Part shown: positions 8,358 to 51,046 of the stretch, piece after piece
Numbering within the stretch: position 1 is the first letter of the stretch
Layout: each line of letters begins with the position of its first letter
NCBI GenBank assembly: GCA_022565635.1
Contig: JAIUMH010000003.1
Location: 1-55,424, forward strand
Direction of reading: 5' to 3'
DNA: 55,424 bases
Source of the DNA: Flavobacteriaceae bacterium
GTDB lineage: Bacteria > Bacteroidota > Bacteroidia > Flavobacteriales > Flavobacteriaceae
Notes under the pieces: generated by a model
What the model was told of the DNA's origin: nothing
Databases searched by the model: none
The model's input: the letters and a program-made list of their open reading frames with translations, nothing else
Position numbers and translations under genes: made by a program

Positions 8358-9008
8358 TTAAGCCTTAGGCTTCATTGCGCTTAACATTCCACCATACACA
8401 CCATTAAGTGAATTAAGGTTTTGAGTTAAGGAAGCCATCTGGTCTTTTAACTTACCAGCATTAGCTGTAACTGCTTGATTGATTTCAGCTTGCTTAGTAG
8501 CAGACTCTAATTGAACTTTATATAAATTATTTAAGGATTCCATCTGCTGTGCAGCTTTCACCATTTCTTCACTATATTTCTTCTGAGAGCTCATTGCATC
8601 GGTTGCTGGAGCTATTCCTTTTGATGCGCTTTCAAAATTCTTAATGCTTTGACCTAGGCTTTCCATTAATTTAGAATCAATTTTTGCCTCTTTAAGCATA
8701 TCATCTAATTTCTTAGATAACATACCTTGTTCATCTTTAGCTACTGCTTTAGATTTTTTTTCAGTTGACTCGCCACCAGCTAATTCAGGATAAACCTTAG
8801 ACCAGTCTAATTCAGTTTCAATTGGTTCGAATGCGGAATAAGTAAAAATAAGAGCTTCAGTAACAAGACCAATAGTTAACATAACATTACCTGTTAATGG
8901 TCCTATTTCAAAATGAATAATTTTGAATAGTGCACCCACTAATACAATAGCTGCTCCTAATCCATATACCATATTCTTAATTCTTTTACCTGCTTTTGAT
9001 TGTGCCAT
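8358..9008 (-). CDS. gldL: Gliding motility / type IX secretion motor protein GldL
   Basis: The 216-residue protein has two N-terminal transmembrane helices (about 13-33 and 37-57) linked by the conserved KIIHFEIGPLTG turn, then a long cytoplasmic helical region. A Glu inside the second helix (E51, in LVTEALIF) matches the membrane-buried Glu shown to be essential for the GldLM proton motor in related flavobacteria; the correspondence is by motif, not by alignment. It lies 45 bases after gldK and 46 before gldM, in the standard operon order. Confidence 0.95.
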   Translation of the reverse strand: MAQSKAGKRIKNMVYGLGAAIVLVGALFKIIHFEIGPLTGNVMLTIGLVTEALIFTYSAFEPIETELDWSKVYPELAGGESTEKKSKAVAKDEQGMLSKKLDDMLKEAKIDSKLMESLGQSIKNFESASKGIAPATDAMSSQKKYSEEMVKAAQQMESLNNLYKVQLESATKQAEINQAVTANAGKLKDQMASLTQNLNSLNGVYGGMLSAMKPKA

Positions 9009-9053
9009 AATCGTTTAAATTTAAGTTATTTAATTGTTTATTGTTGTTTAAAA

Positions 9054-10409
9054 TTATCTTCTTCTGTTTGAAATATTTAAGCTATTACCTAAGAAATCTT
9101 GTACAGTTCTAAAACCGATATAACTTCTAGCAGAGTCTGCATATTCAAAGTCTCTTGTACTAACTTGTAAGAAATAACTTACATCTTTCCAAGAACCTCC
9201 ACGAATAACTTTTCTTCTATTTTCTTTATTATTAACGTTTGGATTCATACTCGACATATATTCATAAGATGCCGCATCATAGGAAGTATTCACCCATTCA
9301 GAAACATTTCCAGACATATTATACAAGCCAAAGTCGTTAGGCTCATACGAATCTGCCTCAACCGTGTACAAAGCTTCATCGGCAGCATAATCACCTCTTA
9401 AAGGTTTAAAGTTTGCTTTAAAACAAGCTCTATCATCTTTAGCATAAGGACCTCCCCAAGGGTAAGTACCAGACTCCAAACCTCCTCTTGCTGCATATTC
9501 CCATTCTGCCTCAGAAGGCAATCTAAACATATTAGAAGGAGCTAAATCTTTAGATCTTCTATAATTATTTAAATACTGAGTTCTCCAGTCCGCAAAAGCT
9601 TTAGCTTGATTCCAATTTACACCAACTACTGGATAATTATCATAAGCAGTATGATTAAAGTAGTCATTATGCAAAGGCTCATTGTAAGAGTAATGAAAAT
9701 CTTTAATCCAAACAGTTGTATCAGGATACACCGGAACAACATACTCTTTAATATACTCAGAACGATCACCCTCTGCCCTAGCTGCTGCTTCAACATCCAT
9801 TTGTTTGTAAGAATATTTAAACTCTTCAACATTCTTCATTCTCACACCATTGTATGACTGATCATTTGGTAAATAAAAATCATCCATTACATAAACGTAA
9901 TCGGCATCGGGGTATTTATTCTCATCCCAAACGATATCAACATCCCAATTAATCATTTGATCCATAGGATCATAATGACGTGAAAATTCTTGGAACGGAG
10001 TCAATTCCCCTTCATCAGCAGCATTCTTGAAAGCATAACTACCAATTGAGCGATTGTTCCCTCTTCCACCATCAGTTTCACCAGCTAACTCAGCAGCTTC
10101 AGCAAGCTTTTGCCTCACTACAGAGTCACGTACCCAGTGTACAAACTGTCGATACTCAGAATTAGTAATTTCAGTTTCATCCATGTAGAATGATGTAACT
10201 GTTACAGTTTTTGTAGGCGCATCGTTCAATCCCGCAATATCGTGATCTGCTTTACCCATTATAAATGCCCCTCCTTCAACCAATACCATACCGTAAGGTT
10301 TTTCTGGGTTCCATTTCTTGCCTTCTACACCTACTAGCTGACCGCGGTCATTATTTCCACAACTCACTAATACCAATGTAACTAAAAAAAGTTTAATAAA
10401 ATTTCTCAT
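9054..10409 (-). CDS. gldK: Gliding motility / type IX secretion lipoprotein GldK
   Basis: The 451-residue protein has a lipoprotein signal peptide with lipobox LVSC (acylated Cys17). The body is a formylglycine-generating-enzyme (SUMF1/FGE) fold: VEGGAFIMG near the start, then GVNWNQAKAFADWR, RLPSEAEWEYAARGG and the terminal RGGSW and IGFRTVQD motifs. A large insert (about 100-245) is typical of GldK. In type IX secretion the protein is structural, forming the outer-membrane-attached periplasmic ring with GldN. It is the first gene of gldKLMN, 101 bases after an arginase-like gene. Confidence 0.95.
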   Translation of the reverse strand: MRNFIKLFLVTLVLVSCGNNDRGQLVGVEGKKWNPEKPYGMVLVEGGAFIMGKADHDIAGLNDAPTKTVTVTSFYMDETEITNSEYRQFVHWVRDSVVRQKLAEAAELAGETDGGRGNNRSIGSYAFKNAADEGELTPFQEFSRHYDPMDQMINWDVDIVWDENKYPDADYVYVMDDFYLPNDQSYNGVRMKNVEEFKYSYKQMDVEAAARAEGDRSEYIKEYVVPVYPDTTVWIKDFHYSYNEPLHNDYFNHTAYDNYPVVGVNWNQAKAFADWRTQYLNNYRRSKDLAPSNMFRLPSEAEWEYAARGGLESGTYPWGGPYAKDDRACFKANFKPLRGDYAADEALYTVEADSYEPNDFGLYNMSGNVSEWVNTSYDAASYEYMSSMNPNVNNKENRRKVIRGGSWKDVSYFLQVSTRDFEYADSARSYIGFRTVQDFLGNSLNISNRRR

Positions 10410-10510
10410 TTCTATATGTTATAGTAACGTAATTTTTCGGCTGTAAACCTATTCAAATATTTTCTAAAAACCAACTATTTTCTTAATAGATATTTAATTT
10501 AAATTAAATC

Positions 10511-11680
10511 TTAAAATTCATTTTTTGCCTTAGCCTTCAACCATCGCTCTGGAAGCTCTAATTTACAAGCAGTTAAATAATCATCTTCACTACAAGACAA
10601 AAACGAATTTTCTTTCAATTTATTGTTGCTATTTTCCAAAGGCAACTCCATCCACCAACGTCCAGACAAGTTACTTTGTAAAAAAACAAGGTTATCCTCA
10701 TCTATTGGGACGGTAAATTTAGTAAAATTTTGGTTAAATTGTGGATGCTCTTCGTTAAATCTAAGAGCAACCCCTTCAATTAAATACCAAAACATCTGCG
10801 CAATCAAAGAAACAAAAGCTGGAGTTTGCTGAAATTTATGCAATTCATAAAGACCAAAACTTGAGGTTTTATCACTTATTCCAGCATATCTTGCAAGCAC
10901 ACAAAGCTCATTTGCTGAAAATCCATTTACCATAAAATGATTTGGGTCTGAAATTGATGCAGCCTTTAAACTAGTCAAATCGAAACTTACAAAATCTGCA
11001 TCTCTAAACAAAGGCTCTACCTTAGGTAATGATTGAGTAACCTCTCCTAATCGGTATGCCTCAAAATAGAGTCTGTCTATTAAATCAATTTCATCTTGAT
11101 GTACGTAGTACGTTTGGTAACCTAAATTAACGTAGTTAAATAAATTATAAGGTTGCTTAACCACCATGTGACTTAAGTAATTGAACTTTCCTAATTCTGT
11201 ATCTGCATCACCTAAATCAAATTCATGACTTACACTAAGGAAGTTGACCATATATTTTACGTCTGCAAAAGACTTATATTGATAATAAATTAAATCTTTT
11301 CCACCACCCATAACCATCAGTAAAACTTTATTCTTAAGTAAAAAAGTTGCTATTTTCTGTAATAAATAACCGGTATCATTAGGTGTGTTACCGGGCATTA
11401 TATCTCCTAAATCTATCATATTAATACTCCAGCTTCCAGGATATAGACAATACAAAGACTTACGTATTGAATTATAACTAAAATCTTTTGAATGACTGGG
11501 TGACGATCTAAACTCATAAACCCCAAGAATAGCGATTTGATAGTGATTAAAGTCTACTTCTTGAGGTTCTAAATCTTGATAAAAATCTATTTGGTTACCT
11601 AGATGCTTATTATTTAGGTTGGATTTAAGCTCTTCTAAAAAATGAGCATCAATAGGTTGTAAAAATTCAAATTCTGACAT
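10511..11680 (-). CDS. Arginase/formimidoylglutamase-fold protein with altered metal site
   Basis: The 389-residue protein aligns by motif with the ureohydrolase fold (arginase, agmatinase, formimidoylglutamase): MVMGGGKDLIYYQ (about 122-134), LSVSHEFDLGDAD (about 148-160) and VSFDLTSLKAASISDP (about 230-245). Active family members carry GGGHD, DAHxD and SFDxDxxDP, whose His and Asp residues bind two Mn ions. Here H is K128, the first Asp of DAHxD is V150, and the second Asp of SFDxD is replaced. Catalysis by the usual mechanism is therefore doubtful. It lies between topA and gldK. A structural or regulatory role is possible; no function is proven. Confidence 0.75.
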   Translation of the reverse strand: MSEFEFLQPIDAHFLEELKSNLNNKHLGNQIDFYQDLEPQEVDFNHYQIAILGVYEFRSSPSHSKDFSYNSIRKSLYCLYPGSWSINMIDLGDIMPGNTPNDTGYLLQKIATFLLKNKVLLMVMGGGKDLIYYQYKSFADVKYMVNFLSVSHEFDLGDADTELGKFNYLSHMVVKQPYNLFNYVNLGYQTYYVHQDEIDLIDRLYFEAYRLGEVTQSLPKVEPLFRDADFVSFDLTSLKAASISDPNHFMVNGFSANELCVLARYAGISDKTSSFGLYELHKFQQTPAFVSLIAQMFWYLIEGVALRFNEEHPQFNQNFTKFTVPIDEDNLVFLQSNLSGRWWMELPLENSNNKLKENSFLSCSEDDYLTACKLELPERWLKAKAKNEF

Positions 11681-11725
11681 TAAAGCTTAATTTAAAATCA
11701 CTAGGATTTTGCCAAAACTAAGCAA

Positions 11726-14224
11726 TTATTTCTTTTTTGTGTTTTTCTTTGTAGTTTTTTTTCGCTTTGAAGTTGATTTCTTTCCTTTATCCAGCATAGC
11801 TTTGACTTCCTCTAATGTTAAATTTTGCGCATCGGTAGTTTTAGGTAGTTCAATTTTTTGCTTCCCTTTAGAAACTTTAAATCTCCCCCATCTTGCTTTC
11901 TCTACCTTAATGCCTTCATCTTCCCAATGATGAATTAGTTTATCTTTCTCCTTTTGTATTTTATCTTCAATAAGCGTTTCAATATCTCCATCAGATAAAT
12001 TGTCAAAATCGTATTTTTTATTGACGTTGATAAACATTCCGTCCCATTTTAGAAATGGACCAAATCTACCAACCCCTTTTTGAACTGGTTTATCTTGATA
12101 ATGATAAATAGGTTCTTCAGATTTTTCTTTAGATTTAATCAATTCTAAAGCGCGATCCATGGTTACATCTAGTGGATCTTCTCCTTTATCTAAAGAGACA
12201 AATTTTTTGCCGTATCTCACATAAGGCCCAAATCTACCCACATTTGTTTCTACAGCCTCTCCTTTATACTCCCCTAATTCTTTTGGAAGTTTAAATAGAT
12301 CCATCACCTCTTCAAATGTAATGGTATTTAAGGTTTGTCCTGGTCTTAAGCTAGCAAATTGCGGTTTTTCTTCATCTTCTACTGTTCCTATTTGAGCCAT
12401 AGGTCCATATTTACCTAAACGCACACTTACTGGCTTTCCAGTTTTAGGATCTTTACCTAATACGCGCTCACCTACTTCACGTTCGGCGTTTTCAGCAACA
12501 TCTTCAACACGGGGATGGAATTCGGTGTAAAAATTTTTCATTACATCGGTCCATTTTTTATTTCCTTCAGCTATTTCATCAAAATCTTGCTCAAGACCAG
12601 CGGTAAAATTGTAATCTAAAATACCTGAGAAGTGTTCTACTAGAAAATCATTTACTACCATTCCCACATCGGTAGGGACCAATTTCCCTTTATCTGAACC
12701 TACATTTTCTGTGAGTTCTTTTTTCTTGATAGCTTCATCTTTTAATGTAAACTGATTATATTTTCTTGGTGTTCCTTCAATTTGACCTTTTTCTACGTAT
12801 TTTCTATTTTGAATAGTTGAAATTGTTGGTGCGTAAGTTGATGGTCTTCCTATTCCTAATTCCTCTAATTTTTTAACCAAAGAAGCTTCTGTATATCTAG
12901 CTGGTGGTCGAGTAAAGCGTTCGGTGGCTTGCACCCAATTATTCGTTAAGTCTTCACCTTCTTTTACCCTAGGTAAAAGGCCGTCTTGTTGCTCTTCTTC
13001 CTCGTCATCACTCCCTTCTAAATACACCTTTAGAAAACCTTCAAACTTGATCATTTCACCACGTGCAACAAATTCTTTTTTGTGTGTATTAGCCTCAATC
13101 TTAAGAACTGTGCGTTCTAATTGTGCATCACTCATTTGTGAAGCAATGGCACGTTTCCAGATTAAATCATACAATCTTTTTTGATCGTATTCATCTCCAG
13201 CGCTGTGTACCGCAAAATTGGTAGGGCGAATTGCTTCGTGGGCTTCCTGCGCTCCTTTAGCTTTGGATTTAAAATTTCTGGATTTGGCAAATTCTTCTCC
13301 GTAAGCCGATACGATTTCTTTATAAGCGCCTTTTTTAGCTTCATCTGAAAGATTTACGCTATCCGTTCTCATATAAGTAATACGTCCCGATTCATACAAG
13401 CGTTGCGCCATACTCATCGTTTTTCCCACGGGGAAATTAAGCTTTCTAGCCGCCTCTTGCTGAAGTGTTGATGTGGTAAATGGAGGGGCAGGCGATTTTT
13501 TAGCTGGCTTGGTGCTTAAGTCGGCTACCTTAAAATCAGCGCCTAAATTATCTTTTAAAAATTGTTCTGCTTCTTTTTGAGTAGGAATGTTTTTGGCCAA
13601 TTTAGCCTTGAAGCTTTGTCCATCTTCTGTTGAAAATTCAGCATCTATTCGGTAAGAAGCTTCTGCTGTAAAATCTTGTATATCTCGCTCACGCTCTACA
13701 ATTAATCGCACTGAAACAGACTGAACACGACCAGCCGAAAGACCTCCTTTTACTTTTCTCCATAAAATAGGAGAAAGCTCATAACCTACCAATCGGTCTA
13801 ACACTCTACGTGCCTGTTGAGCATTCACCAAATTGTAATCAATTTTTCTAGGGTTTTTTATGGCTTTTTGAATAGCTGGCTTGGTAATTTCATGAAAAAC
13901 AATGCGTTTGCTATTGGTATCATTTAACTTAAGTTCTTGGGCTAAGTGCCAAGCAATAGCTTCTCCTTCACGGTCTTCATCACTGGCTAACCATACTGTT
14001 TCTGAAGCTTTGGCAAGATTCTTTAATTTCCTAACAACATCTTTTTTATCTTTAGAAACTACATATTTTGGAGTAAAATCTCCATCTACATCAACACCTA
14101 ACTCCTTTGAAGGCAAATCAGCTATATGCCCAAAACTAGAAGCTAATTTATAATCTTTACCTAGAAATTTCTCGATGGTTTTTGCCTTGGCTGGCGACTC
14201 AACTATTACTAAATTCTTAGCCAT
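11726..14224 (-). CDS. topA: DNA topoisomerase I
   Basis: The 832-residue type IA topoisomerase opens with the Toprim domain (MAKNLVIVESPAKAKTIEKF; acidic DEDREGEAIAWH at about 80-91). The catalytic tyrosine is in GRITYMRTDSVNLS (about residue 285). Several short topoisomerase C-terminal repeats follow (for example VGRFGPYVRYG and VGRFGPFLKW), and the tail is Lys/Thr-rich (about 815-832). The enzyme relaxes negative supercoils. These C-terminal repeats lack the four-Cys zinc fingers of E. coli TopA. It heads a leftward run leading to gldKLMN. Confidence 0.97.
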   Translation of the reverse strand: MAKNLVIVESPAKAKTIEKFLGKDYKLASSFGHIADLPSKELGVDVDGDFTPKYVVSKDKKDVVRKLKNLAKASETVWLASDEDREGEAIAWHLAQELKLNDTNSKRIVFHEITKPAIQKAIKNPRKIDYNLVNAQQARRVLDRLVGYELSPILWRKVKGGLSAGRVQSVSVRLIVERERDIQDFTAEASYRIDAEFSTEDGQSFKAKLAKNIPTQKEAEQFLKDNLGADFKVADLSTKPAKKSPAPPFTTSTLQQEAARKLNFPVGKTMSMAQRLYESGRITYMRTDSVNLSDEAKKGAYKEIVSAYGEEFAKSRNFKSKAKGAQEAHEAIRPTNFAVHSAGDEYDQKRLYDLIWKRAIASQMSDAQLERTVLKIEANTHKKEFVARGEMIKFEGFLKVYLEGSDDEEEEQQDGLLPRVKEGEDLTNNWVQATERFTRPPARYTEASLVKKLEELGIGRPSTYAPTISTIQNRKYVEKGQIEGTPRKYNQFTLKDEAIKKKELTENVGSDKGKLVPTDVGMVVNDFLVEHFSGILDYNFTAGLEQDFDEIAEGNKKWTDVMKNFYTEFHPRVEDVAENAEREVGERVLGKDPKTGKPVSVRLGKYGPMAQIGTVEDEEKPQFASLRPGQTLNTITFEEVMDLFKLPKELGEYKGEAVETNVGRFGPYVRYGKKFVSLDKGEDPLDVTMDRALELIKSKEKSEEPIYHYQDKPVQKGVGRFGPFLKWDGMFINVNKKYDFDNLSDGDIETLIEDKIQKEKDKLIHHWEDEGIKVEKARWGRFKVSKGKQKIELPKTTDAQNLTLEEVKAMLDKGKKSTSKRKKTTKKNTKKK

Positions 14225-40718: not shown

Positions 40719-42047
40719 CTATTCAATACCAAAGTATTCCATTTTTTTATAGAGTGTTGAGCGTGTGATATTTAGTTCTTTAGCAGTTTTTGATTTGTTG
40801 TATCTGTTTTTAGTAAGCGCATCCATGATCATTCTTTTTTCTAGATTTTCACTTTCTGTTTTTAAATCTAATTTACTTTCATCTGCATTCATAAAAACAC
40901 GATTATTAAAGTCAGGAAGATGTTCATAGTTAATCACCCCATCCTCTGTAAGTAAAACTCCTCTTTTGATGAAATTTTTTAATTCTCTTAAATTTCCTGG
41001 CCAAGTATATTTTCTAAAATCTTGAATCAAATCAATTTTAAGGCGTACATTTTTCTTTTTTAATTCCACACTAGACTCGTTAATAAAATGGTCAATAAAA
41101 TCTACAAGATCTTCTTTTCTCTCACGAAGCGGACTTAACCGGATAGGAAATTCATTTAATCTAAAATATAAATCTTCCCTCAATCTGTTTTGTTCAATAG
41201 CGCTTTCAACAGGAACATTTACCGAGGTAATAAACCGAATGTTAAGGTTGATTTGAACTTGGTTGATCTCTATTTTTTTCTCTTGTATGACTCGGAGTAT
41301 TTTTATTTGATTACTTGGCGAAAGGTTAATGATTTCATCAAAAAAAATAGTACCACCATTGGCTTTTTCAAAAAAACCAAGTTGATTACTGGATCTTACT
41401 TTATTAGAACCATGTGCACCAAAAAGCTTTCTGTCTATATTGTTTTCGGTAATTGAGCCACAATCAACCACTACAAAGGGTTTTCCAAAACGTTTGCTTT
41501 TGGAATGAATATACCGGGCAACATATTCTTTACCCGTACCACTTTCTCCATGTATAAAAACCGACATATCTGTGGGGGCTACTTTATCAATTAGCTCCCA
41601 TGTAGCTTTCATTTTTTTATTTTTACTCTTAATGATGGTTTTAATTTGATCTGAACTAGCTAATACATGTTCTTGATTGGGTTGCTGAGATAATTCAATA
41701 GCTTTTTCAATAAGCGAAAGAAGCTCATGAGATTTTACCGGTTTAGAAACGTACTCGTAAGCTCCAATTTTGATGGATTGCACCGCTGTTCTTACATCAG
41801 AGTAATTAGTGATAAGTATAACAGGGAGTTGATGATAGTTTAGTTTAACTTTTTTCAAAAATTCAATTCCATCCATTCCTGGCAAGCGTAAATCCGTAAC
41901 TATAAGGTCAGGTATATATTGATCTAAATTTTCAAAAGCGCTTTCAGCATCAACGAAAGAAATTACAAAATAACCTCGATCTTTAAGAAAGCTGGTCAAT
42001 TTTTTATTAAAAAAAACATCGTCATCAATTAGGTAAATACTCTTCAC
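40719..42047 (-). CDS. NtrC-type response regulator lacking the GAFTGA loop
   Basis: The 442-residue protein has a receiver domain (1-120; phospho-acceptor D52 in IVTDLRLPG, K102 in SKPVK). The AAA+ domain has Walker A GESGTGKE (167-174), Walker B GGTIFFDEI (231-239) and WPGNLRELKN. A Fis-type helix-turn-helix follows (about 400-442, ELNITRSTLYKKMEYFG). The sigma-54 contact loop should read GAFTGA at about 210-218; instead the sequence is LFGAHGSNKVRSSNQLGFFE. It may therefore not activate sigma-54 in the usual way. It is divergent from the TauE-ATP-grasp-kinase operon, whose kinase could phosphorylate it. Confidence 0.92.
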   Translation of the reverse strand: MKSIYLIDDDVFFNKKLTSFLKDRGYFVISFVDAESAFENLDQYIPDLIVTDLRLPGMDGIEFLKKVKLNYHQLPVILITNYSDVRTAVQSIKIGAYEYVSKPVKSHELLSLIEKAIELSQQPNQEHVLASSDQIKTIIKSKNKKMKATWELIDKVAPTDMSVFIHGESGTGKEYVARYIHSKSKRFGKPFVVVDCGSITENNIDRKLFGAHGSNKVRSSNQLGFFEKANGGTIFFDEIINLSPSNQIKILRVIQEKKIEINQVQINLNIRFITSVNVPVESAIEQNRLREDLYFRLNEFPIRLSPLRERKEDLVDFIDHFINESSVELKKKNVRLKIDLIQDFRKYTWPGNLRELKNFIKRGVLLTEDGVINYEHLPDFNNRVFMNADESKLDLKTESENLEKRMIMDALTKNRYNKSKTAKELNITRSTLYKKMEYFGIE

Positions 42048-42432
42048 TTACTTTTTTGAGTGAATATATTAAAAATGCAAGAAAGCCTCTTAGTAAAACT
42101 CTATTTTTAAATACAAAATTTTCAAAAATTCAAGTCACACTTTAAATTAGATGCTTTTATGTTTACAAACAGGACGAAGTGTATAATAATCATACAATTT
42201 AATAAATAAAGTTAATTATTTATTAAGTATGTCATGCTTAACTATCTTTTAAGCTTACTATTTTGATGTTCTTGTAGAACAATTATATTTTGCCAAAGAT
42301 TTATAAAAAATATCCTTTGGACTACTCATTAATATATGAATTTATAAAATGAAATACCCATAATTAATTATAATTAAGACAGTAGAGTGATTACAGGTAT
42401 CGTATCTGACAACTAAAAACAATAAAAAACAG
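42048..42432. other. Divergent intergenic region with a long inverted repeat
   Basis: The 385 bases separate the NtrC-like regulator gene and the TauE operon and contain no gene I can see. An interrupted inverted repeat at 42191-42231 (CATAC + TAATAAATAA / TTATTTATTA + GTATG) is the clearest structure and a candidate operator. No strong TAnnTTTG box was found on either strand. Confidence 0.5.
42191..42231. repeat. Inverted repeat, candidate operator
   Basis: Outer arms CATAC / GTATG and inner arms TAATAAATAA / TTATTTATTA are separated by AGTTAA. It lies 144 bases upstream of the regulator start and 201 bases upstream of the permease start. Confidence 0.55.
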
Positions 42433-43188
42433 ATGAAATTATTATTATTGGTTATTGTAGGTCTTGTTATTTTTGTACTGAGTACGTTGAGTGGTGGTGG
42501 AGCTAGTTTATTATTAATGCCTTTAATCATTTTTGTTGCTGGAGCTAAGTCTGTAGCCCCTATCATGACTTTAGGAATAGCTATGAGCAGTAGTTCTAGG
42601 GTGTTTTTGTTTTTAAAAGATATTGACTGGAACTTATTTAAGTGGTTATTTCCTTCCACTATTGTAGGCTCAATTTTAGGGGCAAGGTTATTTGCTTCCT
42701 TGTCATCAGATTGGATTCAAGTAATTATTGGTGTTTTTTTAATCCTTACGGTTGTGCAGTTTTTCCAAAAACCAAAAGATTTAAAAGTAAGGAGAATTAA
42801 AACTTGGCATTTTGTACCCATAGGTTTTGGAATTTCTTTTTTATCGGCCTTAATAGGTGGTGTTGGACCATTGATGAATTCAGCTTATATGAATTATGGA
42901 ATGACCAAGGAAGAATTAATTGGAACACGCTCAGCAAATGCTGTGGTTTTACACATATCAAAATTATTAAGTTATGCTTATTTTGGTTATATGACTGGAG
43001 AAGTATTAAAATTTGGAATTATATTGGGCTTGTCTGCTATTGTAGGAAATTATTTTGGAAAAAAACTCTTAGGTATGATTTCTGAGCTTTTTTTTAGAAA
43101 AATTGTTATTTCTACAATGGTGATTAGCGGAATACTCATGTTGCATAGACATAGAGAGTTCATTATAGATTGGATGAATTCTTTATAA
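42433..43188 (+). CDS. TauE/SafE family anion permease
   Basis: The 251-residue protein has about eight hydrophobic helices in two halves. Each half has a Gly/Pro-rich TauE/SafE motif: LSGGGASLLLMPLIIFVAGA near residues 19-38 and LIGGVGPLMNSAYMNYGMTK near 138-157. The family carries sulfite, sulfonates or other small organic anions out of or into the cell. It is the first gene of a four-gene operon with an ATP-grasp-like enzyme (17-base gap), a receiver protein and a hybrid kinase, so its substrate may be linked to the enzyme's product. Confidence 0.88.
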   Translation: MKLLLLVIVGLVIFVLSTLSGGGASLLLMPLIIFVAGAKSVAPIMTLGIAMSSSSRVFLFLKDIDWNLFKWLFPSTIVGSILGARLFASLSSDWIQVIIGVFLILTVVQFFQKPKDLKVRRIKTWHFVPIGFGISFLSALIGGVGPLMNSAYMNYGMTKEELIGTRSANAVVLHISKLLSYAYFGYMTGEVLKFGIILGLSAIVGNYFGKKLLGMISELFFRKIVISTMVISGILMLHRHREFIIDWMNSL

Positions 43189-43205
43189 AATTTAAAATTA
43201 ATATT

Positions 43206-44585
43206 ATGAAGTTAAGTATTACAGACAACGTACATTTAGTAGAGCCGGGCGATTTTGAAGCATCAGAGCACTGGTATCCAAGGGTCCTCAACTCCAATAT
43301 ACATCCTTTAGTTAGTCATTTTTTGTATTTGACCAACGAACAATATGTAGAAAGGTATTGTAGATTGAACCCTGAAGCCAATCCCAAGGCAATTATGCAT
43401 ATTCTAAATTATCAACCTAAATATTTTAAATGGTCTGGAACAGATATGATGCATATCACCAATCAGTTAGGGAATAAAAAGCTCACGGTAATTGAGACTA
43501 ACTCTTGTCCCTCTGGACAAAAATCAATGCCCTTACTTAATTTAAACGTAGAAAAAGGGGGCTATAAACGATTAATTGAAGAGACTTTTCTGCCTGCCGT
43601 AAATGCACATAAAGAAGAAGGTAAATTAGCTGTAATTTACGATAAAAATCCAATGGAAAATGTAGGTTATGCTTCTACTTTAGCAGATGCATTTAAGGAA
43701 GATGTTTTGTTAGCCAAATTTGATAAAGATGACCCTGACCCACCGGCCAAATTCATTGATAAAAAGCTACATGTAAAGAATGAAGAAAATGAATGGGAGC
43801 CTATTCGCGCCGCCTTTAGGTATGTAACACAAGTCCCCTGGAATCGAATTCCATTAGGCTCTAAAACTTTGTTACTCAATCCTATTGAAGCCTGTTTGGC
43901 AGGCGGAAGAAACAAATCTGAAGCCTATATGGCATACCAAGAATTTAATCGAAAATTTAAGGAAGAAGGAATTGCTATAAACACACCTATGACTTATTTA
44001 GATGTGAGTTTAGAAGAAATCCCAAATTACTTTGAAAAGCTAGGCAAAAGCATGGTAATCAAGGTGCCAGACAGCAACGCAGGACAGGGTGTTTATACGG
44101 TAACTTCTTTAGAAGAGTTAAGTAAAACAATGCAAGAATTAGAGCAGAATTTGCCAGAAGATAAATACCTTATTCAGCAATTAATTTACAGTAATTATAT
44201 TAAAGGTGCTTCAAAAAAAGATTCATGGTATCACGTTGGAACTATCCCAGATAAAAAGAATAGAAGTTATGCTTTTGACCTACGTTTGATGATGAGTTAT
44301 ACAGAAAACGGCATTAGACCTCTTGCCATTTACTCAAGAAGGGCTAGATTGCCACTAAATCAACCTTTGCCCAAAGGAGCGGATAGCTGGGAATTATACG
44401 GAACTAATTTATCGGTTAAACAAATGGAAGGTTGGACTTATGATGATGAGCGCTTAATGTTATATGATATTCGTAACTTTGCTAACATGGGTCTAGGAAT
44501 TGATGAATTGATTTCTGGGTTTGTACAGTCTGCTATGGCTACTTACGCAATAGACCAAAACGCTATTAAAAAATTTGATAAATAA
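43206..44585 (+). CDS. ATP-grasp-like enzyme of unknown product
   Basis: The protein has 459 residues from the ATG at 43206 (an upstream in-frame start would overlap the permease gene). The C-terminal half has ATP-grasp features: MVIKVPDSNAGQGVYTVTS (Lys plus Gly-rich loop, about 284-302), YLIQQLIYSNY, and a metal-site-like AFDLRLMMSYTENGIRPLAI. The N-terminal half contains ETNSCPSGQKSMPLLN and probably binds the co-substrate. ATP-grasp enzymes join a carboxylate to an amine or thiol through an acyl phosphate. No signal peptide is seen. The gene lies between a permease and a phosphorelay pair; such an operon is unusual. Confidence 0.65.
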   Translation: MKLSITDNVHLVEPGDFEASEHWYPRVLNSNIHPLVSHFLYLTNEQYVERYCRLNPEANPKAIMHILNYQPKYFKWSGTDMMHITNQLGNKKLTVIETNSCPSGQKSMPLLNLNVEKGGYKRLIEETFLPAVNAHKEEGKLAVIYDKNPMENVGYASTLADAFKEDVLLAKFDKDDPDPPAKFIDKKLHVKNEENEWEPIRAAFRYVTQVPWNRIPLGSKTLLLNPIEACLAGGRNKSEAYMAYQEFNRKFKEEGIAINTPMTYLDVSLEEIPNYFEKLGKSMVIKVPDSNAGQGVYTVTSLEELSKTMQELEQNLPEDKYLIQQLIYSNYIKGASKKDSWYHVGTIPDKKNRSYAFDLRLMMSYTENGIRPLAIYSRRARLPLNQPLPKGADSWELYGTNLSVKQMEGWTYDDERLMLYDIRNFANMGLGIDELISGFVQSAMATYAIDQNAIKKFDK

Positions 44586-44591
44586 AAAAAT

Positions 44592-44948
44592 ATGGATTTA
44601 AAAGTTTTAATTGTTGAAGATGATGTTGTTTTTTGCAAATTATTGACCAAGTATTTAAAAAACAATGGTATACAAACAAAAGATGCACAAACGGCTGAAA
44701 CCGCTAAGGCACTTTTAAAAGGAGAAAACTTTGATTTTATTGTAATTGACAATAAACTTCCAGATGAAGACGGAATAGAAGTTTTAGAATGGATGAGTCA
44801 AGAAAAAATCAGCATCAAAAAAATATTAATGAGCAGGTTTGAGGATGAAAAAATAATTCAAAGAGCCACCGATATTGGGGTAAAAAGATTTGTAAAAAAA
44901 CCATTAAAACCAACTGCCCTTCTTGATTTATTACAAGAACTAGGTTAA
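44592..44948 (+). CDS. Single-domain response regulator (receiver only)
   Basis: The 118-residue protein is a CheY-like receiver with no output domain: acidic pair E9-D10-D11, phospho-acceptor D53 in FIVIDNKLPDEDG, Ser in the switch position (ILMSRF) and Lys in VKKPLK. It starts 6 bases after the ATP-grasp gene and is followed 17 bases later by the hybrid kinase. As a stand-alone receiver it may shuttle or drain phosphate in the relay, or bind a target protein directly. Confidence 0.92.
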   Translation: MDLKVLIVEDDVVFCKLLTKYLKNNGIQTKDAQTAETAKALLKGENFDFIVIDNKLPDEDGIEVLEWMSQEKISIKKILMSRFEDEKIIQRATDIGVKRFVKKPLKPTALLDLLQELG

Positions 44949-44965
44949 ACTTGTAATTAGTTTCT

Positions 44966-47548
44966 ATGTTCAAACTCAAAGGAAAAACAATATGGCTTTT
45001 TACCATCATAGCCATAGGATTAGCTAGTGTAGGAGTCTATTTCTACACTAGCTTAACTTCTTTGAATAAAAAAGTAGAGGAAAGTATCTATCCTCAAAAA
45101 AGATCTAATTACCTAAAAGATATTACTCTAAACATCAACAAGCTTAATAATTTATACTTAGTTGATTCTATAAAGTTTTCTTCAAGAAAAGTAGATACCA
45201 TTATCCATGATATTGAACGAAATTTAGATTCAATTAAAATTGAGTTTAGAAAATCTAACGCATTTGACGAACAAAAAATAGATACCATTCCCAAGCTTTT
45301 GCGTAAAATACAAGAGGAATACTTAGCCTTGGAAAAGGTGAAACAAAAGAGTCAATCCCGGTTCATTAATGACTTAGAAAGTTTGCTTAAAGAAGAATTG
45401 GCCCAACTTAACTTAAACAAAAAAGATTCGGTCACAATTGTAAAACAAATAACCTCTGAAATCTATGACCGTTCTATTGATAATGAAAGGTATTTTAAAG
45501 AGGTAAACGTTGATGAAGAAAAAGAAAAAAGCAGGGGATTTTTTCAGCGCCTATTTGGTTCTTCTGAGGCTGATGATTCTGGGGATGAAGAGGCTAAGAA
45601 AAGCGAAAATGACAGTTTGGAAAGAATAATGAATCGGGTAGAAAAAGATACCATTATTTCAACCCAAGTAGATACTTTACTCACGCAGTCTGCTCAAATG
45701 AGTGAGCCTCCAGCTGAGATGAAAATCATTTCTATCTTTGAGCGAATTCAACGGAGAAGAATAGATATATTAGAGAACCTAAAAGAACGGGAAAATCGAA
45801 TCTTTCAAAAAAACTATGAAGTCAATAATTACATAGAAAATATTTTAAATGAAATCCTCTTTGAAGAAGTGAATTCTTTTAATGAATCAATTTATGAATT
45901 CACAAAAAAATCAAAAGCTTACTTGTGGAGAAGCGGAATTCTCATTCTTATTTTTTTGATTCTAGCCCTTATTTCAACGTACATTGTCATCAAAGACATT
46001 AACAAAAGTATTTACTATCAAAAGAAATTAGAAGAAAGCGAAAAAAGAGCTTTATTAGAAGCTGAAGAAAAACAAAAATTCCTTTCTACCATGAGCCATG
46101 AGTTAAGAACTCCACTCACTTCAATTATTGGCTATACCGATATGCTTAACCAAGATGAAGAGTATGTAAAAGCAATAAAAACAGCTTCTAATTACCTGTA
46201 TCAAATGACTAATGAAATCTTAGATATGGCTAAGATTAAGGCAGGAATTATAGAAATTAAAAACGAAGCCTTTAACCTGAACGAAGTTTTTGAAATGATT
46301 GAAAGTAACTTTAAACCTTTAATCATTAATCAAGGTCTTGAACCTATATTTGAGCATCCTAAAACACCTGTATATGTGCTTGCAGATCAATATAGAATTC
46401 AGCAGATTGTTTATAATTTGGTACATAATGCCTTAAAATATACAGAAACTGGTTTTATAAAAGCGGGGTATACACATCAACTAAAAAATGAAGAAAAAGA
46501 AGTCTCCATCCAGATTGTTGTTGAGGACTCTGGTGTTGGGATGTCTGAGGAAGAACAAAAATCAATCTTTAAAGATTATCACCAAGCGGGTACACATAAA
46601 AATAAAATGAAAGGAACTGGCTTAGGAATGGGAATTGTTAAAAATTTAGTCAATAAGATAGGTGGTAATCTGAAGCTTGAAAGTCACGAAAATAAAGGTA
46701 CAAAATTCACTATTGACTTTGTATTTCAAATAGCATCAGAAGCAGATGCTATAAAACAGAACAACCCAAGTTTAAAATTAGGAGCAAATTCGTTGGATGG
46801 TTACAAAATTTTTGTTGTTGATGATGATTTACTCATTACAAAACTTTACCAAGGAATTTTTAGGCAATTTGGTGCACGTATTGAGAGCAGTAATCACCCC
46901 AAAGAAGCTTTACAGCACCTGATAAAAAACAGCGATTATGACATGGTGATTTTTGATATGAAAATGCCGGGCATGACAGGAAGTGAACTCCTTGAAGAAT
47001 TAGAAAAACAAAACGCAAGACCAAAAAACACAGTAATTTGTTCAGCCAATGTGTTGCTTTCAGAAAAAGACAAAGAAGACTTTAACAAATTTGATTATCA
47101 ACTATTTAAGCCTTTAAAAAAGAAAGACATAGTAGATTTAGTTGCCCAAGTATTTAATTTGAATTCAAGTGCATCATCAACACCTACTAATCCTTCTAAA
47201 GAAGAAACTCATGCTTTAGATTTTTCCTACAGCTTAGAAGATTTAAAGGCATACACAGGAGATGACGAAGAAGCTTTAATTGAAATGCTCAAATTTTTAT
47301 TGGATGAAAATGAAATTGAATTAAATCTTCTTGAAGAAGCACTACAAGATGAAGATTTAGAAGAAATAGCCAACCGAATTCACAAACTTTCTTCTAGATT
47401 TGCACAGCTTCAAATTGAAGCACCACATGATCCAAAAGAAATTGAACTAAACCTTAGAGATTCTAAAGTTGAAACCTTAAAACAGGCAACTAAAATTTAT
47501 GAGTTTTGGAGGTATTGTAATTCAAATTTGATAAGTAAGTACTGCTAA
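44966..47548 (+). CDS. Hybrid sensor histidine kinase (HisKA-HATPase-REC-HPt)
   Basis: The 860-residue protein has a transmembrane helix (about 9-28), a long periplasmic helical sensor region (about 29-320) with a charged insert, and a second helix (about 325-345). HisKA follows (H378 in STMSHELRTPLTS), then an ATPase domain (N box YNLVHNALKYTE, G boxes DSGVGMS and GTGLGMG). A receiver comes next (D664 in IFDMKMPGMTG). At the C-terminus is an HPt domain with H806 in NRIHKLSSRF. This BarA/GacS-type layout gives an internal His-Asp-His relay. Likely acceptors are the receiver gene just upstream and the divergent NtrC-type regulator. The signal is unknown. Confidence 0.93.
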   Translation: MFKLKGKTIWLFTIIAIGLASVGVYFYTSLTSLNKKVEESIYPQKRSNYLKDITLNINKLNNLYLVDSIKFSSRKVDTIIHDIERNLDSIKIEFRKSNAFDEQKIDTIPKLLRKIQEEYLALEKVKQKSQSRFINDLESLLKEELAQLNLNKKDSVTIVKQITSEIYDRSIDNERYFKEVNVDEEKEKSRGFFQRLFGSSEADDSGDEEAKKSENDSLERIMNRVEKDTIISTQVDTLLTQSAQMSEPPAEMKIISIFERIQRRRIDILENLKERENRIFQKNYEVNNYIENILNEILFEEVNSFNESIYEFTKKSKAYLWRSGILILIFLILALISTYIVIKDINKSIYYQKKLEESEKRALLEAEEKQKFLSTMSHELRTPLTSIIGYTDMLNQDEEYVKAIKTASNYLYQMTNEILDMAKIKAGIIEIKNEAFNLNEVFEMIESNFKPLIINQGLEPIFEHPKTPVYVLADQYRIQQIVYNLVHNALKYTETGFIKAGYTHQLKNEEKEVSIQIVVEDSGVGMSEEEQKSIFKDYHQAGTHKNKMKGTGLGMGIVKNLVNKIGGNLKLESHENKGTKFTIDFVFQIASEADAIKQNNPSLKLGANSLDGYKIFVVDDDLLITKLYQGIFRQFGARIESSNHPKEALQHLIKNSDYDMVIFDMKMPGMTGSELLEELEKQNARPKNTVICSANVLLSEKDKEDFNKFDYQLFKPLKKKDIVDLVAQVFNLNSSASSTPTNPSKEETHALDFSYSLEDLKAYTGDDEEALIEMLKFLLDENEIELNLLEEALQDEDLEEIANRIHKLSSRFAQLQIEAPHDPKEIELNLRDSKVETLKQATKIYEFWRYCNSNLISKYC

Positions 47549-47575: not shown

Positions 47576-48148
47576 TTAGAACCGAAATCCAAAATTTACA
47601 ATTAAGTTAGGAATCACACGGTTGTTGAAATCACTTCTGTAAAAATTATATGCTACACCAGCTCCTAAATCTAATAATATACCGTCTTTAGAAATAAGTT
47701 TTGTTCCTAAAGCAAACCCAATACCAAGATTATTACTTCTTTCTAGAATACTCATTCCTTCACCATTCATCAAACTTTGTTGGTGATTTTCAACCCTATT
47801 GTAACTTAAATAAGCTTCGTTATAAAATCCTCCTGCAGGTTTGTTTCCATAATATCTTCTATAGAATAGGGCTAAGTCAGTTTTTAAATCTATAAATTCA
47901 TCAATAAAAGTATAGGTGAATCTCACCCCTGCACCTGATTTTTCATTGATTATACGTTCGTATGTCAAGTCTATAGCTCCAATGTAGGTGTAAACAGGGT
48001 TGTATAAAAAATCATTTTTCTTGTGTGCTTCTTTTTTTGAATTCTCAACAAAGGCGGAACTCTCATCTTGTGCAAAACTAGAAATGCAGACCATAGTGAA
48101 ACTAAGGAGTAATAACCCAACTTTATTATGAAGAAAACGTGAAAGCAT
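47576..48148 (-). CDS. Small outer-membrane beta-barrel protein
   Basis: The 190-residue protein has a signal peptide (hydrophobic about 9-23, then FAQ). The mature part alternates polar and aromatic residues and ends in NFGFRF, the terminal aromatic typical of outer-membrane barrels. It looks like an 8-strand barrel of the uncharacterised kind common in Bacteroidota. No binding function can be assigned. It is convergent with the hybrid kinase gene across 27 bases and lies downstream of, but probably not in operon with, the DUF2490 gene (68-base gap from its ATG). Confidence 0.75.
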   Translation of the reverse strand: MLSRFLHNKVGLLLLSFTMVCISSFAQDESSAFVENSKKEAHKKNDFLYNPVYTYIGAIDLTYERIINEKSGAGVRFTYTFIDEFIDLKTDLALFYRRYYGNKPAGGFYNEAYLSYNRVENHQQSLMNGEGMSILERSNNLGIGFALGTKLISKDGILLDLGAGVAYNFYRSDFNNRVIPNLIVNFGFRF

Positions 48149-48216: not shown

Positions 48217-49023
48217 TTAATAGCTATAATTGTATTTACGTTTATTTCTACTTAATATATCCATAAATAAGTAGAACATTGGCCCATGAGACATCTCAAA
48301 ATCATGATTACCTGTAGAATTTAACTGAAAAATATATCCCAGCTCTAGTCTTGTCCAATCCCAGAAACGATACCCAACCCCTACAAAATTTCGATTTTGA
48401 GAAAAGTAATTATCGCCATAATTAGGACCAAATTCTACGTGCATTTCTGAATACGTTGAAGTATATAATGTATTATTAGTATAAAAATAATCGGTATTTA
48501 AAGGTATTCTAACCCGCATTCTATAACGAACACGCCAATTGTGATTTGGCCCTTCGGGACGGTCTATACCTCTCCATCTTGATTCAAAGCGTAAACGATG
48601 CGTAAAATTAAACCTTCCTGCAAAGGCATAATTATTTATTTGAAGTGTTGAACGCACTTCTCTTTCATAATCACCGTCTAAAGCATCCTCAAACGAAAAA
48701 CGTGGAGTGGAATTAAAATGCCCAATTGGGTTAAAACTTATTCTTGTCAATTTACTGTATTGATATGCAATCCACGGTCTAATACTCAAACGTAGAGGTC
48801 TATCCCAAAAATCACTTGAGTTTAGTTCGCTTTGTCTTCTGTAAACTACATCTAATTCCCAAGCCCATTTGGTATCTTCACCAAAAAAGTCTGAAATAGT
48901 ATATTTGGTATACATGATTCGGTTTTCTCTGAAATCTGGTCCATCATCATCTTGCCCATGCATAACTGCAACGGCAAATAATATACTTACAAATAAGACA
49001 AAATATTTATTATTGTAACCCAT
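48217..49023 (-). CDS. DUF2490 family outer-membrane protein
   Basis: The protein has 268 residues from the ATG at 49023, which overlaps the upstream stop by 14 bases. Earlier in-frame starts would lie deep inside the upstream gene and spoil the signal peptide. The signal peptide ends near VAVMHGQ. The body (for example WAWELDVVYRRQSELNSSDF, FAGRFNFTHRLRFESRW, VGVGYRFWDWTRLELGY) has the Arg- and aromatic-rich strands of DUF2490 barrels. The function of the family is unknown. Overlap with the large coiled-coil protein suggests that they work together. Confidence 0.8.
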   Translation of the reverse strand: MGYNNKYFVLFVSILFAVAVMHGQDDDGPDFRENRIMYTKYTISDFFGEDTKWAWELDVVYRRQSELNSSDFWDRPLRLSIRPWIAYQYSKLTRISFNPIGHFNSTPRFSFEDALDGDYEREVRSTLQINNYAFAGRFNFTHRLRFESRWRGIDRPEGPNHNWRVRYRMRVRIPLNTDYFYTNNTLYTSTYSEMHVEFGPNYGDNYFSQNRNFVGVGYRFWDWTRLELGYIFQLNSTGNHDFEMSHGPMFYLFMDILSRNKRKYNYSY

Positions 49024-51046
49024 AAATTCTTTCAATACGTTGTGGTACATTTTCTCTTCTAACAGCACGATCAATGCGCTGTACCTCTTCATCATTTTTC
49101 TTCACGAAATATTCTAAGCGCTCTTCTAAGGCTTTAAGTCTTTTTAAATAATTAAAAAACTCTTCGGTTTTATTGGTTTCCAAAAGACTATTTACATAGT
49201 GTACAAAAAGTACTTCTTTAGACTTTCGGTTAATGTTGGAATATATTCTTACTTCAGAATCTCTATAATCAAACGGATTATCTCTGTAAATGGTAAACAG
49301 CGAATCTGTTTTATGAATGAAATTATCAAAGCGTTTAAGCCTTGACTTATTGGCTATAATTTTTTCATTGACCTCAACTAAATCTTTTCCAAGTTTTAAC
49401 TTTTCTTCAAATTCATCATTATTAATGTAATTTTTGGACAGATGACTTATAATGTTTTTATTGAAGGCTAAATAGATGTTTGTACTCAATTCTCTGTCTT
49501 CAAATTTGCCATCTAACTTTTTACCTTGAACATATAGACTATCTCTTTCTTTGCTTAAGTGCAAAATTTTATTATTTAAGGAATCTATTTTTTCTTCTTG
49601 AGCAAATTGTTTAAACTGCTTATTTGTTTCTTCAATGTTTTGAAAAGAGCTTTTGATTAGGGAATCTTGTAAGTGATTTATTTTTTTGAGTGGTTTTTCA
49701 TTTTTCATCGCTTGTTCAAATGAAAAATCGATAGCTACCGAGTCTTTTTCTGAATCATAGGTAAAGTATTGGTAGTATTTCAGATTGATAGTATCTAGCA
49801 CATTTTCTAAGTACAAGTCTCGATTAACGAAGTCAAAATAGCTCTCTTTTTCTAACCCTACAAGGCTATCTATGATAATTAGCTTCTCTAAAAAGGCTTT
49901 AGTTTCTGCATATTTTCTTGATAATTCTTTGCTTTTGTCTTTATTTAAAATTACGCTTGAGTTATTTACAAAAGTGTGGATTGAATCAAATGATTTTTCA
50001 TTATTTTCAACCAATTCATCCATTAAAGACTGATTATTTTGGTTATAACTAATTTTAAATCTTCGAGTGAAATTAAATTGTAAGCTGTCCTTACTTAAAT
50101 TTCCTAAGCGGTGAAATTTATTAAGTTCATCAACTGTGTTTTGAATTAATTGATTTCCTTTTGTTTGTGCTTCAAGTTGCTTTCTGCTCTTCACCCCTGA
50201 GTCATAGTTGATACCAAAGCCACGATTAGAAAACTCAAAATTAACACTGTCCGAAGATTTAATTTGTTCAATTTTATCTGTGGTTGTTTGGTACACAATA
50301 GAATCTTTTAATTCATCGTTTTTATAAGTGATTATACGAGTTAAAAAGCCATCGTAATAGCTTCTTACTTCTTTAACCTTATGATCATCTTTAGAAATGT
50401 ATTGAATCACTAATTCACCATCTAAAAACCCTCCTTCATTAAAACTACCGTTTACTTTATTTTGGAGTTTATCACCGCTTATAAATTCAAAATCCCCAAC
50501 AGGAATTCCTTCAGAAAAATTAATTGAAGTAATTTTTTCAACTTTCGTTACAATACTATCAACCTGTTTAATTTCAACAACCCATTCATTTTCTGGTATA
50601 TTCTTAGTGTAAAAAAATTGAAAGTTAAGTTCTTCACCTTTTAGGTGATTATCTTGATTAACATTGTAATCATTTTCTGTATCTTTTTTGGAATTTTCTT
50701 TAAAAGTGATCTCTCCTAAAATTATTTTGAAATCTTGAATCTTGAACAGCCATTCACCTTCTTTTTTACTGTCTTTATAATTTCCAGAGATGTACAGTCT
50801 GTTTAAATCAAATTTTTGTTCCGTAAAATCGGTTTTAAAGCTGTAATTTCCATGCAATTGCAAAGAGTCTTTATCATGTTCTTTTTCAGATGTAAAGAAA
50901 ACTTCTTTGCCTTCATATTGATCAAAAATCACCGTATCTCTCTGAACCTTAATTAAACTGTCTAATTTTTTGGATGGCTTTTCTTGTGCACTTGTAAAGA
51001 TAAAAAAGCCTAAAGCTAAAATAAGTATGTAGTACTTCATAATCAT
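49010..51046 (-). CDS. Large exported protein with MORN/YwqK-like repeats and helical C-terminal region
   Basis: The 678-residue protein has a signal peptide (about 1-20, FTSAQ end). The N-terminal half carries G-x-W repeats such as ISGNYKDSKKEGEWLF, VNGSFNEGGFLDGELV and a following VKEVRSYYDGFLTR; these recall MORN and YwqK-type repeats. The C-terminal half (about 285-678) is highly charged and helical, probably coiled coil. The start codon shares its A with the stop of the upstream beta-barrel gene (TAATG). It is a paralogue of the gene at 53375. It is probably periplasmic. I do not recognise a known family function. Confidence 0.75.
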   Translation of the reverse strand: MIMKYYILILALGFFIFTSAQEKPSKKLDSLIKVQRDTVIFDQYEGKEVFFTSEKEHDKDSLQLHGNYSFKTDFTEQKFDLNRLYISGNYKDSKKEGEWLFKIQDFKIILGEITFKENSKKDTENDYNVNQDNHLKGEELNFQFFYTKNIPENEWVVEIKQVDSIVTKVEKITSINFSEGIPVGDFEFISGDKLQNKVNGSFNEGGFLDGELVIQYISKDDHKVKEVRSYYDGFLTRIITYKNDELKDSIVYQTTTDKIEQIKSSDSVNFEFSNRGFGINYDSGVKSRKQLEAQTKGNQLIQNTVDELNKFHRLGNLSKDSLQFNFTRRFKISYNQNNQSLMDELVENNEKSFDSIHTFVNNSSVILNKDKSKELSRKYAETKAFLEKLIIIDSLVGLEKESYFDFVNRDLYLENVLDTINLKYYQYFTYDSEKDSVAIDFSFEQAMKNEKPLKKINHLQDSLIKSSFQNIEETNKQFKQFAQEEKIDSLNNKILHLSKERDSLYVQGKKLDGKFEDRELSTNIYLAFNKNIISHLSKNYINNDEFEEKLKLGKDLVEVNEKIIANKSRLKRFDNFIHKTDSLFTIYRDNPFDYRDSEVRIYSNINRKSKEVLFVHYVNSLLETNKTEEFFNYLKRLKALEERLEYFVKKNDEEVQRIDRAVRRENVPQRIERIYGLQ

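Follow-up and report, generated by a model that had tools for sequence, protein, structure and literature searches.

Hybrid-kinase phosphorelays comprise a HisKA-HATPase-REC-HPt kinase, a single-domain receiver and an output regulator. The same parts occur in a five-gene set of a Flavobacteriaceae bacterium (GenBank assembly GCA_022565635.1, contig JAIUMH010000003.1, positions 1 to 55,424; this whole stretch of 55,424 nucleotides is referred to as the window). Unlike the described relays, the set, at window positions 40719-47548, unites these parts in a single cassette to which an exporter and a ligase-like enzyme, here called GRASP, also belong. In the CP_ATPgrasp proteins (PF14403/PF04174), an ExN..PSG motif precedes a Rossmann-like part and is followed by a lysine strand and a glycine-rich loop, and GRASP appears to share this order and its spacing. 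However, GRASP members match none of their models, the alignment score between the two lies within the range of shuffled controls, and the partners differ, those of CP_ATPgrasp being Alpha-E and transglutaminase-like domains (PMC3597751). Ligases of the RimK, MptN, Ddl and glutathione synthetase type are similar in that several of their models weakly match the central stretch of GRASP, but GRASP stays under every curated cut-off shown and places the C-terminal part of a model at its own N-terminus. The regulator of the set is reminiscent of the NtrC proteins of Caulobacter and Rhodobacter, which share its architecture and likewise miss the sigma-54 loop motif. Whereas those proteins have a deletion in the loop and act in nitrogen control (PMC10274813), the loop in the window is replaced and the context is unrelated. 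Finally, an operon of RimK(RLAN), GCS2 and FGase in congeners shares a relay of the same type, but has other ligases, no TauE/SafE-type permease (TauE) and no GRASP. A gene set of the window's composition was not found described in the titles and abstract starts listed from searches of the open-licence literature.

We read the locus as a biosynthesis-and-export cassette under a phosphorelay, a reading to which we give a probability of roughly 45%. The recurrence of a transporter, a ligase-like enzyme and a relay suggests that a small molecule is made and exported under sensor control.

A conserved cassette around GRASP

The open reading frame list bears out the initial annotation, which had described four rightward genes with gaps of 17, 6 and 17 bases and a divergent regulator across 385 bases. 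On the forward strand, TauE (42433-43188, 251 amino acids; PF01925, E 8e-37, 127.6 bits against a cut-off of 32.6) is followed by GRASP (43206-44585; 459 amino acids counted from the adopted ATG start at 43206, the longest frame beginning with TTG at 43170), the lone receiver (44592-44948, 118 amino acids; PF00072, E 2e-23) and a membrane hybrid kinase (44966-47548, 860 amino acids; sensor-HisKA-HATPase-REC-HPt-like). The NtrC-type response regulator (40719-42047, 442 amino acids) lies on the reverse strand, facing TauE across the intergenic region 42048-42432. Pfam confirms the earlier calls for TauE, the receiver, three kinase domains (HisKA, HATPase_c and Response_reg, all above cut-off) and the REC-AAA+-HTH layout of the regulator (Response_reg, Sigma54_activat and the Fis-type HTH_8); its NtrC-type assignment holds for the architecture and not for the GAFTGA motif, which is absent. 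The HPt call stands on a motif, H[KQR][LM]x[SGN][RL], found within the C-terminal 130 residues of all 37 related kinases longer than 780 amino acids, the window's included. This is a widened pattern, the narrower first version having matched 9 of 39, and the Pfam Hpt match is under its cut-off (E 0.0024, 18.5 bits against 24.6). With the N-terminal sensor part of the kinase at about residues 1-345, domains and motifs together place all phosphorelay residues: the HisKA histidine, the REC aspartate, the HPt histidine and the receiver aspartate. In the lone receiver, E9, D10, D11, D53 and K103 are kept in 95% or more of the 29 copies compared.

GRASP is sparsely distributed. Searching the window's genome with GRASP yields one match, and among 60 relatives including that genome it is confined to it, the other 59 including 26 congeners. 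Matches were found in 11 of 395 genomes drawn evenly from the phylum (nine full-length, the window among them) and in 16 of 395 drawn evenly from the class. We attributed the two weak matches of the phylum draw (G271 and G357; E 1.7e-4 and 3.4e-4, under 70 residues) to general ATP-grasp similarity and left them out. In family f22, that of genome G328, 23 of 118 genomes have a match, 20 of these at 61-71% identity; the remaining three (G819, G804 and G869; 44-48%) were left out of all counts. A larger draw of 390 genomes gave 26 matches at a stricter threshold, six of them new. No homologue was found on viral contigs or plasmids, and no search was made among phages. A tree of 45 copies, in which a few branches are long (including L082 and L083), separates clade 1 (29 copies, from 28 loci) from clade 2 (16 loci) at 100/100 support. 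The sister of the window's copy in clade 1 is that of Sinomicrobium oceani (L012), a close relative at 77% identity. Sinomicrobium also keeps the order TauE-GRASP-receiver-kinase, at about 85, 77, 55 and 54% identity (tblastn).

The split between the two clades matches a split in gene context. In clade 1, the receiver lies directly downstream of GRASP on the same strand in 29 of 29 copies and TauE directly upstream in 28, L082 having one gene in between. Relatives of the kinase and of the NtrC-type regulator, each gene being assigned to whichever of the window's five proteins it matched best, occur within the fetched stretch in 26/29 and 23/29. The kinase directly follows the receiver on the same strand in four loci (window, L012, L082 and L083); in the other clade 1 loci, the distance to kinase and regulator reaches about 6 kb and their order varies. 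Chance linkage is excluded by the recurrence of the set: permease, ligase-like enzyme and receiver form a conserved cassette, mostly with kinase and regulator near. At one locus (L070), close to a contig end, a regulator fragment, the receiver, GRASP and TauE are present twice in tandem as identical copies (L070:1-8305), either a real duplication or an assembly artefact.

Clade 2 (L014-L020 and L030-L038) has a different set of neighbours. An AstE/AspA-like gene is nearby in all 16 loci (by Pfam in L014, by similarity in the others), a second, GSH-S-like ATP-grasp gene in nine, an Orn/Arg-type decarboxylase in six, and agmatinase-like and deoxyhypusine-synthase-like genes in five each, one of the latter being cut by the end of the stretch. 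None of the 16 loci had a best match to the window's receiver, kinase, regulator or permease at E 1e-8. Upstream of GRASP in L018, L031, L036 and L038 is a distinct pair resembling a sensor kinase with an OmpR-type regulator. An Orn/Arg-type decarboxylase is also near TauE in three clade 1 loci (L068, L070 and L072), and from this and the clade 2 neighbours amino-acid or polyamine conjugates are a reasonable guess as products, though no more than that. A predominance of homologues without kinase and receiver, which the initial annotation named as evidence against its proposal, is seen family-wide in the evenly drawn genomes, with seven of nine full-length homologues of the phylum draw and 14 of 16 of the class draw in the relay-free clade, but not in the window's own clade, where the receiver is always adjacent.

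GRASP might instead modify a protein in the manner of RimK, perhaps the receiver or the regulator, with TauE serving a separate task. RimK-type glutamate ligases are among its best weak family matches and the receiver invariably adjoins it, but that receiver also occurs without GRASP (L123, L124, L131 and L133), and clade 2, which lacks it, has an AstE/AspA-type hydrolase and in 9/16 loci a GSH-S-like ligase, which fit small-molecule chemistry better. We regard protein modification as very unlikely.

Fold and family of GRASP

Across 18 aligned GRASP sequences, invariant residues are numerous. Stretches resembling the lysine strand, the glycine-rich loop and the ExN metal motif are conserved in them, and it is there that several ATP-grasp models match weakly. 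In the window's protein the ExN-like motif IETNSCPSGQKS is N-terminal (residues 96-107), and the K286 strand and the NAGQGV loop are central. At E values up to 1, and among the rows shown, the NCBIfam model MptN matches 13 and rimK_fam 12 of the 18 members, all far under the cut-offs; the best Pfam E value among the members is 0.0021. The positions of the matches, taken from 11 of the 18, are swapped with respect to the models. In five of the 11 (window, L003, L004, L023 and L025), GRASP residues 47-115 align with the C-terminal end of MptN (225-282 of 291), whose middle matches residues 239-325 in four (L012, L021, L027 and L028). Models of rimK, Ddl and glutathione synthase align to the centre, and the window, L023 and L025 combine the C-terminal MptN match with a central rimK match in the same protein. 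The member L006 has no match among the ATP-grasp models. Such a swapped order is the pattern expected of circular permutation, and GRASP is, in our judgement, quite probably a circularly permuted ATP-grasp. Of the earlier ATP-grasp call, the fold is upheld as likely, though not proven, the sequence evidence for it and for the permutation being moderate; in the cases tested, no model passes its cut-off.

Comparing the GRASP profile with 25 PF14403 proteins gave an alignment that is collinear along 234 columns and pairs ETN..SCPSG with EDNLRCPSG, and VIKVPDSNAGQGV with LVVKETDAAGGYG. Its score of 24.1 exceeds those of nine unrelated families (14.3-18.5) and of the reversed profile (16.7), but was equalled by six of 150 column shuffles and is therefore not significant. 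Neither PF14403 nor PF04174 matched any of the 18 members at E 0.1, and the PF14403 profile found no match in the window's genome. We also compared GRASP with the companion GSH-S-like family by hhalign, in linear order and with the parts swapped. There was no signal either way (the score was reached by 28 of 150 shuffles, and the reversed profile scored 22.8 against a real 19.6), so that permutation is not supported by that comparison. Among chains of the Protein Data Bank, the window's sequence has no match and the 18-row profile just two chance matches (E 0.59 and 0.71). On these sequence comparisons, the enzyme family looks new.

The relay, its regulator and a promoter-like pattern

Kinase sensor and GRASP co-occur over the genomes of f22. 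At E below 1e-20, a threshold chosen after inspection of the list, the sensor is present in 18 of 20 genomes with a clade 1 GRASP and in 11 of 98 without (Fisher p 7e-12); at the search's own threshold of 1e-5 the counts are 19/20 and 35/98. In the two genomes that have this GRASP but no sensor at 1e-20, G857 and G859, the receiver is immediately followed by a more divergent kinase (L082 and L083).

The relay is not dependent on the ligase. Regulator (46-49% identity) and kinase sensor (39-60%) are close together in six of 24 congeners searched, beside varied genes. In L123 (stretch 8469-11829), L124 and L125 the RimK-GCS2-FGase operon, called by Pfam in L123 and by similarity in the other two, follows the kinase, its third gene being like those for N-formylglutamate amidohydrolase; the lone receiver is present in L123 and L124 and is not among the genes listed for L125. 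In L126 (2625-4051) and L127 (5830-7246), regulator and kinase are separated by a tandem of four small proteins, each of some 100 amino acids, the one checked having no Pfam match, and a glycosyltransferase is beside the kinase-regulator pair in L122. The regulator homologue of this last genome (G010; L122:4445-5773) is broken by an internal TAG stop. In f22, we opened eight loci from the 11 genomes that have the sensor at 1e-20 and no clade 1 GRASP: the kinase is beside the regulator in six and the receiver is kept in two (L131 and L133). The receiver was accordingly dropped as a GRASP-only partner, since L123, L124, L131 and L133 have it without GRASP. Nor do we count the M42 peptidase and the PurF-like neighbour as members of the set, because they hold the same places in loci without GRASP. 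In the window itself, a 190-residue protein without a Pfam match (47576-48148) lies after the kinase and adjoins a gene for a DUF2490 protein (48217-49095, opposite strand; Pfam E 8e-26).

That the relay is found without the ligase indicates that TauE-GRASP-receiver is a cassette coming and going beside a resident relay. A rival explanation goes further and holds that this relay is an envelope-type system controlling other genes, next to which the cassette, as only one of several unrelated gene sets, landed at a permissive site. The six congeners and the pair kept in 6/8 f22 loci speak for it, as do three loci in which the promoter-like pattern described below precedes small genes near the regulator. 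It has to contend with the receiver adjoining GRASP in every clade 1 copy and the kinase nearby in 26/29, across genera with differing gene orders, with the co-occurrence over genomes, and with the far higher frequency of the pattern before TauE than before other genes. We hold this explanation to be unlikely, but worth keeping in mind.

The window's regulator retains the Walker A sequence GESGTGKE and GGTIFFDE, and in place of GAFTGA its loop reads LFGAHGSNKVRSSNQLG, one residue shorter and replaced in sequence. G[AS]FTGA is present in all 34 other regulators of the loci read and in the best Sinomicrobium paralogue (L085), which adjoins a different kinase, so that the window's regulator is alone of 36 compared in lacking the sigma-54 contact motif. 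The window's genome has rpoN.

A first scan of the region before TauE used a sigma-54 consensus; sites recurring in f22 then gave the pattern [AT]GG[CT]A[CT]N4TTTTC[AT]. Among 20 loci, nine of 21 TauE genes have it within 150 bases upstream, as opposed to one of the 208 remaining genes (M42 0/10, PurF-like 0/9, regulator 0/17, kinase 0/15, all others 1/157), with a Fisher p of 7e-10 that is flattered because the pattern was derived from these TauE regions and L070 was counted twice. At any distance, 13 of 21 pattern sites precede TauE (12 of 20 loci, one family) and three precede the small genes near the regulator; one gene like those in L073 and L078, taken from L065, matches PepSY_like weakly and under the cut-off. 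In held-out loci the pattern precedes TauE in five of six, at 73-86 bases, the five being of one genus that is also in the first set. The strict pattern was not found before TauE in the window, L012, L082 or L083, nor a -33/-7 pattern in the window's intergenic region.

These features raise the alternative that the copy in the window is an island, whether in decay, newly gained or the last to survive, that its regulator no longer controls. GRASP is absent from 26/26 sampled congeners, GAFTGA is missing in this regulator alone (1/35, plus one further intact) and the pattern was not found here. However, all frames of the window's set are intact and Sinomicrobium keeps the same order at about 54-85% identity. 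Furthermore, NtrC without GAFTGA acts on sigma-70 promoters in Caulobacter and Rhodobacter (PMC10274813), so the window's regulator need not be dead. We consider this alternative improbable.

Proposed mechanism and biological meaning

Several observations weigh against a biosynthesis-and-export cassette under a phosphorelay. For the enzyme, the sole Pfam match of the window's GRASP is PF02222 (ATP-grasp) at E 0.02 and 15 bits against a cut-off of 27, rimK_fam reaches 16.3 bits against 143.4, the PF14403 alignment is within its shuffles, and a structure prediction on a two-row alignment (window and L012) was unusable at a mean pLDDT of 42. For the control, no such regulator is in the fetched stretch of Sinomicrobium, GRASP is in none of the six congeners with regulator and kinase, and neither TauE nor GRASP is in any of the eight f22 loci without the clade 1 enzyme. 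The pattern was drawn from the loci in which it is counted, its held-out matches come from a single genus, and it is missing in 8/20 loci, although the regulator loop is intact in several of these (L074, L076, L079 and L080). The canonical sigma-54 site has TTGC, where the pattern has TTTC.

If the cassette reading is correct, GRASP, as a permuted ATP-grasp ligase, would join a carboxylate to an amine with ATP, a reaction suggested by its fold class, and TauE would export the product, as gene order and transporter class imply. The membrane kinase may sense an envelope or outside signal. Its phosphate would pass to its own REC domain, on to HPt and from there to the lone receiver as well as the NtrC-type regulator; the domains and key residues for this are seen, and the transfer itself we infer from them. 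The lone receiver could be a relay intermediate or a phosphate sink. In the relatives, the regulator retains the sigma-54 loop, and in 12 of 20 loci a sigma-54-like element precedes TauE, so that activation of TauE-GRASP-receiver by the phosphorylated regulator is most likely there. In the window, with the loop lost and the element not found, the regulator most likely acts on the 385-base intergenic region independently of sigma-54.

The link between relay, ligase and permease proposed in the initial annotation thus survives as a conserved cassette, without being exclusive, as the relay also occurs beside other genes in loci lacking the ligase. Its proposal that small-molecule synthesis or transport is sensed or controlled by the relay gains only on the side of control, from the promoter-like pattern before TauE; product, product export and signal are still inference. 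It is conceivable, although we think it a long shot, that the whole forms a loop in which an undescribed small amide signal is built by GRASP, released by TauE and sensed outside by the membrane kinase, which would adjust production via receiver and regulator. The RimK-GCS2-FGase operon of the congeners would then represent a change of signal molecule, and the Bacteroidota would have a signalling loop with a new permuted ATP-grasp family at its base.

In the window's regulator, the Bacteroidota would gain an example of an NtrC protein that has departed from sigma-54. The GRASP family spans two clades and 45 copies, and in the cases tested no Pfam or NCBIfam model reaches its cut-off. With two ligase operons beside the same relay type in one genus, the finding points to a recurring Bacteroidota phosphorelay linked to small-molecule ligases. 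Should the product be found, the enzyme activity and the relay signal could be assigned together.

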